51,796 bases of DNA, taken from assembly GCA_009787785.1 (NCBI GenBank), contig WQSR01000014.1, forward strand, positions 1 through 51,796. Direction: 5' to 3'. The position numbers were made by a program, and so were the translations under genes. The notes beneath the pieces were generated by a model that did no database searches, was not told the DNA's origin, and saw only the letters and a list, made by a program, of their open reading frames with translations. Source of the stretch: Defluviitaleaceae bacterium. Lineage in GTDB: Bacteria > Bacillota > Clostridia > Lachnospirales > WQUN01. Below, piece after piece: positions 3,425 through 40,576 of the stretch (the first letter of the stretch is position 1; every line of letters begins with the position of its first letter).

Positions 3425-3862
3425 TTATTTCGCCAGAACCAAGGCTTCCGGCTTTTGGGCTTCGTGCTTATGGTCGGGGCCAGCGTAGACGTGAAACTTG
3501 GTGAGCATCTTGCGGCCCAGATTGTTCTTGGGCAGCATCCCCTTGACGGCGTGTGTGAGCACAAACTCGGGGTTCTTCTTAAACATCTCGCGCATACGGA
3601 TTTCCTTCTTGCGCCCTAAGTAGCCCGAGTGGCGTACATAGTACTTCTGGTCCAGCTTGTTGCCGGTGACTTTAACCTTGTCGGCGTTGACGACAATCAC
3701 ATAGTCCCCCGCGTCCACATTGGGGGCGAAGATGGGCTTGTGCTTGCCGCGTAAGATATGGGCAACCTGGGAGGACAAGCGGCCCAGGTTTTGGTCTGCC
3801 GCGTCCACGACAAACCACTTGCGTGTGACTTCCAGCGGCTTGGTTATGCTTGTGGTGCGCAT
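3425..3862 (-). CDS. rplM: 50S ribosomal protein L13
   Basis: 145 aa, full length. It contains the L13 signatures [24 protein letters not shown] near the N-terminus, the central [14 protein letters not shown], and [13 protein letters not shown] toward the C-terminus. It is an early-assembly protein of the 50S subunit and the first gene of the rplM-rpsI operon. The ATG follows AGAGGT. The gene is transcribed away from pfkA, and its promoter spacer contains the palindrome described separately. Confidence 0.98.
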
Positions 3863-3927: not shown

Positions 3928-3956
3928 ATCTTAGACATTTTCTTAGAAAATGTCAA
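3928..3956 (-). promoter_or_regulatory. Promoter of rplM-rpsI
   Basis: On the minus strand, TTGACA (3956-3951), a 17-nt spacer and TAAGAT (3933-3928) form a near-consensus sigma-A promoter about 66 nt upstream of the rplM start. The spacer is almost entirely occupied by a perfect 9-base inverted repeat. Confidence 0.85.
3934..3954. promoter_or_regulatory. Palindromic operator-like element between rplM and pfkA
   Basis: GACATTTTC and GAAAATGTC flank TTA in a perfect 21-nt dyad. It fits the layout GAC-N6-TTAGAAWAW-GTC that also occurs upstream of pgk (15242-15262) and the transaldolase gene (37885-37905). It fills the rplM promoter spacer and lies just upstream of the pfkA promoter, so a bound protein could affect both operons. 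The regulator is unknown. Confidence 0.6.
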
Positions 3957-4016: not shown

Positions 4017-5129
4017 ATGGCAAAAAAGAAAATTGCAATGCTCACCGGAGGGGGCGACGCGCCCGGGCTCAACGCGGTAATCTGTAGCTTTGTACGTGCG
4101 TGCCTCAACACCATGGACTACGATATAATCGGTTATCGCTTCGGTTATCGCGGCTTGTATAGGAACGAGTACATCCCCCTTGACCGCCATACCACTTCCG
4201 GCATTTTGCGTCAGGGCGGCACCATCTTGTTTAACTCCAACAAGGACAACCTCTTCGATTATTCCGTGGAGGAAAACGGCGTAACCGTAAAGAAAGACGT
4301 TTCCGACCAAGCCATCGAAACCATGAAAAAGGAAAACGTCCACGCCCTGGTGGTGCTGGGCGGCGACGGAACCCTTACCAGTGCGCGGGATTTTGCCCGC
4401 AAGGGCGTCAACGTCATCGGCGTGCCCAAGACCATCGACAATGACCTGCCCGCCACGGAAGTTACCTTCGGCTTCGACACAGCGGTGAATACCGTAGCGG
4501 AAAACCTGGGCCGTCTGCACACCACGGCGGAAAGCCACCACCGCATCATGGTGGCGGAGGTTATGGGGCGCAGTGCGGGCTGGATTGCACTCTACGGGGG
4601 CATCGCTGGCTCTGCCGATGTTATCCTCATCCCCGAAATCCCCTATACCATCGAAAACATCGTGAAGAAAATCAACGAGCGCAAGTCCCATGGCAAGGAA
4701 TTTACCATTATCTGCGTCACCGAGGGCGCGATAGAAAAGGGCGGGAGTGCCACCATCGGCAAAATCGTAAAGGACAGCCCCGATGCCGTTCGCTTCGGCG
4801 GCGTGGCGGCCAAGATTGCCCACCAGCTGGAGCAACACATCGAAAACGAGGTGCGCCATTGCCTCTTCGGCCATATCCAGCGCGGCGGCGACACCTCCCC
4901 GGCGGACAGAATCCTTTCCGCACGCTACGGCGTGAAGGCGGCGCAAATGGTAAAAGAAGGGCAGTTCGGCAACATGGTTTGCCTACGCAACGGCCAAATG
5001 GAATACGTAAGCCTGGAAGATGTTATCGGCGATGCGAAGGTCTCCGTCAGCGGCTCGAAGACCGTTGACCCCAACGGGGAAATGGTGCGGGTTGCCAAGT
5101 CCATGGGCATCTCCTTCGCGGATGAATAA
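4017..5129 (+). CDS. pfkA: 6-phosphofructokinase (group III type; phosphoryl donor uncertain)
   Basis: 370 aa from the ATG after AAAGGAGAGAA. It phosphorylates fructose 6-phosphate, the committed step of glycolysis. Visible motifs are GGGDAPGLNAVI (nucleotide/PPi loop), GGDGTLTSA, PKTIDNDLPATEVTFGFDTA (catalytic TIDND) and GHIQRGG. The residue pair that separates donors is mixed: Gly in GGDGT as in ATP enzymes, but Lys in PKTIDND as in PPi enzymes. That combination is known from the long group III PFKs, some of which use ATP and some PPi. The gene overlaps lspA by 8 nt. An upstream N-terminal extension of the frame lacks a ribosome binding site and runs through the promoter, so it is not used. 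Confidence 0.93.
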   Translation: MAKKKIAMLTGGGDAPGLNAVICSFVRACLNTMDYDIIGYRFGYRGLYRNEYIPLDRHTTSGILRQGGTILFNSNKDNLFDYSVEENGVTVKKDVSDQAIETMKKENVHALVVLGGDGTLTSARDFARKGVNVIGVPKTIDNDLPATEVTFGFDTAVNTVAENLGRLHTTAESHHRIMVAEVMGRSAGWIALYGGIAGSADVILIPEIPYTIENIVKKINERKSHGKEFTIICVTEGAIEKGGSATIGKIVKDSPDAVRFGGVAAKIAHQLEQHIENEVRHCLFGHIQRGGDTSPADRILSARYGVKAAQMVKEGQFGNMVCLRNGQMEYVSLEDVIGDAKVSVSGSKTVDPNGEMVRVAKSMGISFADE

Positions 5130-15121: not shown

Positions 15122-15160
15122 GGCCACCGCTCCCTTCAAGGAGGATAGTAGCATCTATAT

Positions 15161-15208
15161 CACGAAAGGGCAAGTTATAACTTGCGATATAATGCACGAA
15201 AGGGCAAG
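15161..15208. promoter_or_regulatory. Direct repeats around a 16-nt palindrome upstream of the AAA ATPase gene
   Basis: CACGAAAGGGCAAG occurs at 15161-15174 and 15195-15208, 34 bases apart. Between and overlapping them is the perfect palindrome GCAAGTTATAACTTGC (15170-15185). The block lies 40-87 nt upstream of the ATPase start and also within about 135 nt of pgk. It looks like an operator, probably for autoregulation of the ATPase. No regulator is identified. Confidence 0.55.
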
Positions 15209-15228
15209 ATAAAATATTATGCCATCAT

Positions 15229-15257
15229 TTGCGCCCACCCGGACAAAATGTTAGAAT
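15229..15257 (+). promoter_or_regulatory. Probable pgk operon promoter
   Basis: TTGCGC (15229-15234), 17 nt and TAGAAT (15252-15257). The -10 lies inside the dyad element at 15239-15265, so a protein bound there would block RNA polymerase. The pgk ATG follows about 39 nt further on. Confidence 0.55.
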
Positions 15258-15265
15258 AAGTCCGG
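15239..15265. promoter_or_regulatory. Dyad operator-like element upstream of pgk
   Basis: CCGGAC and GTCCGG flank a 15-nt core containing TTAGAATAA. The arrangement GAC-N6-TTAGAATAA-GTC (15242-15262) is the same, base for base in TTAGAATAAGTCCG, as upstream of the transaldolase gene at 37885-37905. It has the same spacing as the palindrome upstream of pfkA. It overlaps the predicted pgk -10 box. Confidence 0.6.
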
Positions 15266-37873: not shown

Positions 37874-37908
37874 TGATATAATCGGACAGATTCTTAGAAT
37901 AAGTCCGA
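37874..37908 (+). promoter_or_regulatory. Transaldolase operon promoter and dyad element
   Basis: TG-A-TATAAT (37874-37882) is a perfect extended -10. Directly after it TCGGAC (37882-37887) and GTCCGA (37903-37908) flank AG-ATTC-TTA-GAAT-AA, an almost fully symmetric element with TTAGAATAA as at pgk. GTCCGA is followed by TTTTTT, so the same sequence could also fold into a terminator-like attenuator in RNA. The protein-operator reading is favoured because the pfkA copy lies upstream of its promoter. Confidence 0.6.
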
Positions 37909-38576: not shown

Positions 38577-40576
38577 GCGTTGTACATCCCAATACGGTGA
38601 ACACTTTGCGCTTTTTGAGCGTGGAAGCCGTACAAAAGGCCAACAGCGGCCATCCCGGCTTACCCATGGGCGCGGCTCCCATGGCGTGCGCCCTATGGGG
38701 TAGCATGAAGCACAACCCCAAGAATCCCGCCTGGCCCGACCGGGACCGTTTTGTCATGAGCGCGGGGCACGGCTCGGCTTTGCTATACAGCCTGTTGCAT
38801 GTCTTTGGCTACGATGTGTCCCTGGAGGACGTGAAGGATTTCCGCCAGCACAACTCGAAGACCCCCGGCCACCCGGAATACGGCCATACCCCCGGGGTGG
38901 AAATCACCACCGGCCCCCTGGGCCAAGGCATCGCCAACGGCGTGGGCTTCGCCTGGGCGGAGGATTATCTGGCGGCGAAATTCAACAAGCCCGATATGCC
39001 CATTGTTGACCATTATACCTATGTGCTGTGCGGCGACGGCTGCTTGCAGGAAGGGGTGGCGGCGGAGGCCGTTTCCCTGGCGGGCACCTTGGGGCTGGGC
39101 AAGCTGATAGTGCTCTACGATTCCAACGGCATCACCATCGAAGGCTCTACGGATTTGGCCTTCACCGAAAATGTACAGGCCCGGTTCGCCGCTTGCGGCT
39201 GGGACGTGCGTGAAGTGACAGACGGCGACAGGGATTTGCCCGGCATCTGCGCCGCCATAGAAGCGGCGAAGAAAGTCACCGGCAAGCCCTCCCTCATTGA
39301 AATCAAAACCACCATCGGCTTCGGCGCGCCCAACGCGGGCACGGCGTCGGCCCACGGCTCGCCCTTCGGCGACGCGGGCATCGAGGCGGCGAAGAAGGCG
39401 TTGGGTTGGCCCCATGGGGCCTTCACCGTGCCGGAGGACGTAAAAAAGGAAATCGCCACCTGGCAGACCGCCATGCAAAGCAAGGAAAACGACTGGAACG
39501 CCCTCCTGGCGCAATATAAAACCCAATACCCCGCCGACTTCGCCCAGTGGGAAGGCTGGCACGGCGATACCCTGCCCGAGGATTTCGCGGATATCAATAA
39601 ATATTTTGGCGAAATACTGGCTGACGAAAAGCCCCTGGCCACCCGGGTTTCCTCGGAGCGGGTCTTGCAACGGCTGGCGCAATTGGTGCCCCAGCTTATC
39701 GGCGGCTCGGCGGACCTGGCCCCCTCCACCAATTCCTGGATGAAGGAGCGCGGCCCCGGCTACAGCAAGGAAAACCCCACGGGCTCCAACCTCCACTTCG
39801 GCATCCGGGAGCACGCTATGACCGCCATCGCCAACGCCATGTGCGCCCACGGCGGCTTGCGCCCCTATGTGGCCGGATTCTTCGTGTTCAGCGACTATAT
39901 GAAGCCCGCCATGCGGCTTTCGGCGTTGATGGGTCTGCCCGTGGTGCATATCATGACCCACGATTCCATCGGCGTGGGGGAGGACGGCCCCACCCACCAG
40001 CCCGTGGAACAGCTTGCGTCTTTGCGCACCATCCCCAATTTTCTCACGTTGCGCCCCTGCGACACGGCGGAAACCGCCGCCGCCTGGGTGGTGGCCCTCA
40101 CCGGAAAATCGAAGCCCACGGCACTGGTGCTGTGCCGCCAGCCCTTGCCCCAGCTGCCCGAAACGGGCGCGGGCCTGTACAAGGGCGCGTATATCCTAAA
40201 GGACAGCGCGAACCCAGCCACGGGCAAGCCGGATATTTTGCTCCTAGCCAGCGGCTCGGAGGTGGAGCTGATTTACAAGGCGCAAGCAATATTACTTGAT
40301 GGCGGCATCCACGCCCGGGTGATTTCCGTGCCCTGCATGGAATTGTTTGACGCCCAGGACGCGGCCTACAAGGAAAGCGTTCTGCCCGGTGCCGTCCGTG
40401 CGCGGCTGGCAGTGGAAGCGGCAGTTCCCTTCGGCTGGCACAAGTACACCGGCCTGGACGGGGACGTGCTGGCCATTGAGGGCTTCGGCGCGTCCGCCCC
40501 TGCGGCCAAGGTCTTCGCAGAGAAGGGCCTCACCGTGGACAATGTCGTGGCAAAAGCCAAGAGGCTGGTGAAATGA
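38573..40576 (+). CDS. tkt: Transketolase
   Basis: 667 aa, full length. The thiamine-diphosphate enzyme moves two-carbon units between sugar phosphates. It shows [29 protein letters not shown], the TPP/metal motif [19 protein letters not shown] ending in [11 protein letters not shown], the pyrimidine-domain [20 protein letters not shown] and [25 protein letters not shown]. The ATG overlaps the transaldolase TGA and follows AAGGGGTAGCGA. Its stop overlaps the aldo-keto reductase start, so all three are translated together. Confidence 0.97.

Follow-up and report, generated by a model that had tools for sequence, protein, structure and literature searches.

The 21-nt element GAC-N6-TTAGAAWAW-GTC, present near pfkA, pgk and the transaldolase-transketolase operon (tal-tkt) of a Defluviitaleaceae genome, forms, with a probability of about three in four, the central part of an operator of 23 bp, KGACAWWTTCYWRGAAWWTGTCM. 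The operator would serve a putative homodimeric HTH-type factor, most likely a repressor, that would control a wide range of operons for growth, energy and the envelope. Observed directly are the motif and its over-representation, together with its conservation at orthologous promoters and its placement on core promoters. A sequence-only reading of this DNA had proposed that the element may mark an undescribed regulon, and this view is supported, as is the operator-type nature of the motif.

The Three Sites and the 23-bp Dyad

The window analysed is a contig of 51,796 nucleotides from genome G000, which has a size of 2.66 Mb. The three occurrences reported before, at 3934-3954, 15242-15262 and 37885-37905, were found to be exact in coordinates and spacing. 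For GAC-N6-TTAGAAWAW-GTC, 5 strand-hits were counted in the window versus 0.22 expected, a number reached in 0 of 100 shuffles. After refinement on sites from G000 and its relatives, the element spans 23 bp as a dyad with an odd centre, KGACAWWTTCYWRGAAWWTGTCM, and 3 matches to this consensus are present in the window (0.02 expected). A genome-wide scan, suggested earlier as a check, gave 27 sites in G000 for GACWWWTTCTWAGAAWWWGTC with up to 3 mismatches, some of them repeat copies, versus 2 with the reversed-pattern control. The features around the three sites are the following.

3428..3862, minus strand: rplM (ribosomal protein L13), Pfam PF00572, divergent neighbour of the site
3928..3956, minus strand: predicted rplM promoter, TTGACA (3956-3951), 17 nt, TAAGAT (3933-3928)
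3933..3955, no strand: putative 23-bp dyad operator AGACATTTTCTTAGAAAATGTCA, between the divergent rplM and pfkA, 36.4 bits
4017..5129, plus strand: pfkA (phosphofructokinase), Pfam PF00365, start codon at 4017
15229..15257, plus strand: predicted pgk promoter, TTGCGC-17-TAGAAT, -10 kept in relatives
15241..15263, no strand: 23-bp dyad GGACAAAATGTTAGAATAAGTCC, covering the pgk -10 (TAGAAT, 15252-15257), 17.5 bits
15297..16481, plus strand: pgk (Pfam), followed by tpi (16518), gpmI (17239) and eno (19098)
37884..37906, no strand: 23-bp dyad GGACAGATTCTTAGAATAAGTCC, 1 nt past the tal-tkt -10 TATAAT (37877-37882), 21.1 bits
37932..38576, plus strand: tal (transaldolase), Pfam PF00923
domains in 38630-40573, after tal: tkt (transketolase), Pfam PF00456

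The scores in bits are those of a weight matrix trained on 42 sites from G041 (Nt197P1bin3) and G042 (Co191P1bin4) only, genomes of two further family members which lie behind two database matches and contain about 20 strong sites each. With this matrix, the sites at 3933, 37884 and 15241 rank first, second and third in the 51.8-kb window and are its only strong matches, the next-best position reaching 5.4 bits; the independence of the matrix is imperfect, since the sequence-only model used to locate the G041 and G042 sites had drawn on those at pfkA and tal, though not on the one at pgk. In a 20-Mb Markov null, scores at the level of pgk occurred 0.27 times per genome, or about 0.005 times per window, and 0 matches were obtained at the level of tal or pfkA.

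The dyad symmetry around TTA described in the sequence-only reading holds, but its axis runs through a single base, the central W of TTA, and not the whole triplet. The arms are perfectly symmetric at pfkA, whereas the inner arms at pgk are asymmetric, AAAATG/AGAATAA. The exact sharing of TTAGAATAAGTCCG by pgk and tal is in part a coincidence, since TTAGAAT at pgk serves as the -10 of the promoter, and relatives devoid of the dyad also keep TGnTAGAAT or TGnTAAAAT there. In the same region, at 15159-15215, direct repeats CACGAAAGGGCAAG flank a AAGTTATAACTT dyad upstream of a minus-strand gene for an AAA/DUF4143 ATPase.

Conservation of the Sites and Content of the Proposed Regulon

The site next to pfkA had been assigned to the promoter of a central carbon gene. 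It does lie at a promoter, but the best fit is the divergent rplM promoter, whose spacer is filled by the dyad. Conservation in relatives was expected and was found here: the site is present in 5/5 genomes of the genus (G000-G004) and in a second genus (G041, where it occurs as a tandem pair), with the same placement between TTGACA and the -10 in G001-G004 and G041. With these 6 genomes, rplM/pfkA is the best conserved target. The same expectation failed for the other two sites. At pgk, the dyad is absent from G001-G004 and only the extended -10 is kept; at tal, none is present in G001 and G003. In the tal promoters of G002 and G004 (L110 and L112), the position past the -10 is occupied by another dyad, ATCGGGCTTGATAATNACAAGTCCGAT (ATCGGGCTTG...CAAGTCCGAT). 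The link to glycolysis is thus real in the species of G000, yet secondary to a broader regulon.

Targets in G000 are rplM/pfkA, pgk, tal, rpsJ, the atp operon, the hydrogenase subunit gene hndA, and genes for a FliK-like protein, an RCC1-repeat operon, a solute-binding protein, an fn3 surface protein, an amidase, mreB and a DUF3323/DUF2399 protein, with mutY as a weak target. In G041/G042, they comprise rplM/pfkA, rpsB, pyruvate carboxylase (pyc), adhE, a PilB-type ATPase, DivIVA, Asp23, an Hsp70-like protein, D-Ala-D-Ala carboxypeptidase/response regulator, groES, an XRE-S24 gene and others; all 40 sites examined in these two genomes are located at the 5' ends of genes. Several sites are common to more than one genome: hndA (G000, G001, G002), rpsJ and the amidase (G000, G001), the DUF3323/DUF2399 gene (G000, G002, G041, G042), the PilB-type ATPase (G002, G041, G042), groES (G041, G016), and pyc, divIVA, Asp23, Hsp70-like, rpsB and adhE (G041, G042). 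Central carbon genes are thus among the targets, as had been proposed (pfkA, pgk and tal-tkt in the window; pyc, adhE and hydrogenase elsewhere), but the proposed specificity for glycolysis and the pentose phosphate pathway was not upheld. A glycolysis-only regulon is ruled out by the target list, which consists mostly of genes for translation, ATP synthase, envelope, chaperones, motility and secreted proteins. Upstream of groESL, in L358 of G041 and L172 of G016, the dyad lies beside a CIRCE-like GAGTGCTAA repeat, which may place the chaperonin operon under dual control.

Distribution among Genomes

In forward versus reversed-control counts over 38 genomes of the family, 15/0 sites were obtained for G000, 27/0 for G001 (including many copies of one repeat), 8/0 for G016 and 18/0 for G045. 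The sister genus g2 gave 36/0 in G048 (the same assembly as G042) and 34/0 in G049 (the same as G041), and enrichment over the reversed-pattern control was also identified in g13 (8 versus 0). Most other genomes of the 38 have 0-2 sites; few sites are present in G002, G003 and G005 despite their close kinship, which counts against the operator reading. In G045, 17/17 places examined are GGAAA/TTTCC arrays, mostly adjoining a repeat. These (L395-L411) are arrays of 12-bp half-sites, GGAATTTTTCCW, beside a repeated promoter-bearing sequence, TATACTTGCCCTGCAACCGAGAAAC; the 12-bp half-site phasing is also seen at elements of G000 and G004.

When 85,000 species were scanned for the exact pattern, 18 stretches matched, of which 12 belong to MAGs of termite-gut Defluviitaleaceae, a group covered by PMC7024585. 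The remaining stretches, from Flavobacterium, Tychonema, Metabacillus and the like, seem to have no relation to these. One of them, GGACAATTTCTAAGAAATTGTCC, is conserved in two Metabacillus species (L230 and L235), where it separates ppk from a convergent gene, and is probably an unrelated terminator-like palindrome. A literature search for the site sequence revealed nothing relevant, and a match to T. denticola TroR (PMC2628430) was discarded as a -35 coincidence.

A Multicopy Structured-RNA Element Headed by the Dyad

The dyad also heads an element of 350-430 nt, in which it is fixed 13-14 nt before a -10 of the TATACT type. G001 contains more than 20 copies and G000 at least 4, among them the following.

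G001: L135, L137, L140, L145, L146, L148, L170
G000: L072, L074, L075

An intrinsic terminator closes most of the copies, and a few copies are followed by a gene for a serine recombinase of about 200 amino acids. For the element RNA, RNAalifold predicted 43 pairs, 23 of them with compensatory changes. No Rfam family covers it, and a covariance model of its core identified further copies in G000 and G001 only. At three places in G000 (L071:1017-1066, L076:1471-1535 and L077:1410-1534), a 46-bp palindrome, CAACCGGACAAATTCTCAGACATTTTCTGAACAAATGTCCGGTTG, occurs without the full RNA, and L077 retains only the palindrome and the terminator; these are deletion derivatives of the element.

Promoter Geometry and Proposed Mechanism

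The earlier placement of the element on or next to predicted promoters was confirmed, the dyads lying over core promoters in two geometries. In one, the dyad fills the spacer of TTGACA-17/18-TATAAT (rplM, rpsB, adhE, PilB); in the other, it starts just past the -10 (tal, hndA, RCC1, DUF5050 and others). Both are positions at which a repressor blocks RNA polymerase, which suggests a repressor-type function. The two degenerate positions of each arm are complementary in 25/60 and 28/60 cases, where fractions of 0.52 and 0.49 are expected for independence. The arms thus vary independently, as expected when they are read separately by a protein dimer and not paired in an RNA hairpin. Recurrence of the dyad at orthologous promoters, together with arms that vary independently, is the general behaviour of a transcription-factor operator.

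Binding by a protein, its dimeric state and repression by covering of the promoter are what these patterns suggest. A candidate homodimeric helix-turn-helix-type factor would bind the 23-bp dyad and would repress by covering either the -10/start region or the -35/-10 spacer. Within the window, rplM and possibly pfkA (strong site) and tal-tkt (good site) would be co-regulated, and pgk-tpi-gpmI-eno may join them via a weaker, species-specific site. Taken together, this looks like one broad, previously unlisted control system in termite-gut Defluviitaleaceae for genes of the ribosome, energy, envelope and sugar metabolism. A further-reaching proposal is tentative and rather doubtful, namely that a family-specific global regulator, of a type so far linked to no known operator, controls about 10 to 40 promoters per genome, couples ribosome synthesis, energy and fermentation enzymes and the envelope, and silences the multicopy structured-RNA/resolvase element. 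The arms of its operator would have diverged from genus to genus, with GACA/TGTC in the majority and arrays of GGAAA/TTTCC at the elements of a single genome.

If the operator reading is true, an uncultured termite-gut lineage would have a global regulon without counterpart among the known Bacillota consensuses tested, in which genes for the ribosome, for hydrogen and ethanol metabolism and for the envelope are under one switch, in a gut where the balance of hydrogen and fermentation matters. With the defined 23-bp site and its promoter architecture, DNA-affinity purification would offer a direct route to the regulator.

Alternative Explanations

Many dyads are found downstream of the -10 and ahead of the start codon, and the tal promoters of G002 and G004 have another dyad in the same place, which would fit an RNA hairpin at mRNA 5' ends, acting in stability or translation control, instead of a DNA operator. 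However, the complementarity of the variable arm positions is at chance, and the dyad is located in the -35/-10 spacer at rplM, rpsB and adhE and upstream of the -10 in the RNA element, so that it is not transcribed there; a hairpin is therefore quite improbable. As dyads also head the multicopy element, some sites could be remnants of it and not host regulation. Taken as a general explanation, the dyad would be the promoter end of a mobile RNA/resolvase element and the host copies scars or chance co-options with no common regulator. The element copies of G001 (more than 20) and G000 (at least 4), which start with the dyad, and the truncated copies in L071 and L077, are consistent with this, but the host sites lack element sequence and lie in conserved promoters (rplM in 6 genomes, rpsB, adhE), and G041 and G042 have about 20 host sites each, while the element core was not found in the loci searched there. 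An origin of the host sites as remnants is thus judged unlikely, and an operator for a protein remains the preferred reading.

With respect to the protein, no regulator gene for the dyad was found among the candidates examined, the XRE-S24 protein and the serine recombinase of the element. Recombinases similar to the latter are widespread in the family, also in genomes where sites are rare or absent, and G003, which has sites, yielded none at the cut-off used; the recombinase was rejected as the binder. XRE proteins often bind odd-centred dyads, and in G041 and G042 the dyad lies about 70-100 nt upstream of the gene for an XRE-S24 (LexA/HdiR-like) repressor. That this repressor binds the dyad is nevertheless very improbable. 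An ortholog was not found in G000, although with a completeness of 97% this absence is not certain; nearly the same recognition region, LP(L/I)NYSTYANYESGFREP, is present in the orthologs of G007 and G011, two genomes in which sites are few or absent; and in most orthologs the dyad is absent and a GAACA-N-ATGTGC-like element is common to the upstream regions instead. The protein was set aside because of its distribution and its recognition region, neither its presence nor its alteration following the regulon. The GAACA-N-ATGTGC type element lies just upstream of the XRE-S24 start codon (L237, L239-L243) and is a candidate for the repressor's own operator. CodY is a global repressor in Bacillota, and its box, AATTTTCWGAAAATT, is the nearest known consensus, with a mean of 4.6 mismatches versus 6.5 in shuffles; in addition, AATTTTCCWGGAAAATT-type arrays are present in G045. 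However, 0/55 sites lie within 2 mismatches of the box, three bases separate the arms of the dyad (TTTTC-TWA-GAAAA) compared to one in the CodY box, and the best conserved positions, GACA/TGTC, lie outside it. CodY, or a regulator of the CodY kind with a changed spacing, is thus an improbable binder, though not to the degree of the XRE-S24 protein.

Comparison with Known Regulators

For the comparison with known operators, 55 sites were compared to consensus sequences, which are general knowledge, with a criterion of at most 2 mismatches and with shuffled controls. The earlier statement that the element is not a CcpA, Rex or CggR site was confirmed: 0/55 sites matched CcpA/cre (WTGNNARCGNWWWCAW), no better than shuffled sequences, 0/55 matched Rex (TTGTGANNNNNNTCACAA or TTGTTAANNNNTTAACAA), and 1/55 was within 2 mismatches of one half of the tandem CGGGACN6TGTC direct repeats of CggR, with no tandem at the window sites. 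For the LexA box (CGAACNNNNGTTCG), 0/55 sites were identified, as for the Fur/PerR and NsrR (Rrf2) consensus, a consensus-level test from which a divergent member could differ. The consensus operators of HrcA, ArgR, CRP/FNR and NrdR gave no fit; the GlnR and Spo0A strings, also compared, are too short to discriminate.

Some kinds of targets are shared with CcpA/cre, Rex and CggR, like pfkA, pgk, adhE and hydrogenase. In contrast to their operators, the dyad has no central CG, has an odd centre, and is single, not arranged as the direct repeats of CggR. In its overall 11-1-11 geometry, the dyad resembles the odd-centred dyads of the Rrf2 (NsrR, 11-1-11) or Fur (7-1-7) families, but its sequence is unlike those of NsrR, Fur and PerR. 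For the LexA/HdiR-type XRE-S24 repressor, the likeness is the adjacency of its gene to a site in two genomes. With the CodY regulon, the system shares a global set of promoters, the TTTTC...GAAAA arm palindrome and a repressor-type placement, and it differs from it in the near-invariant GACA/TGTC outer arms and in targets outside amino-acid biosynthesis.
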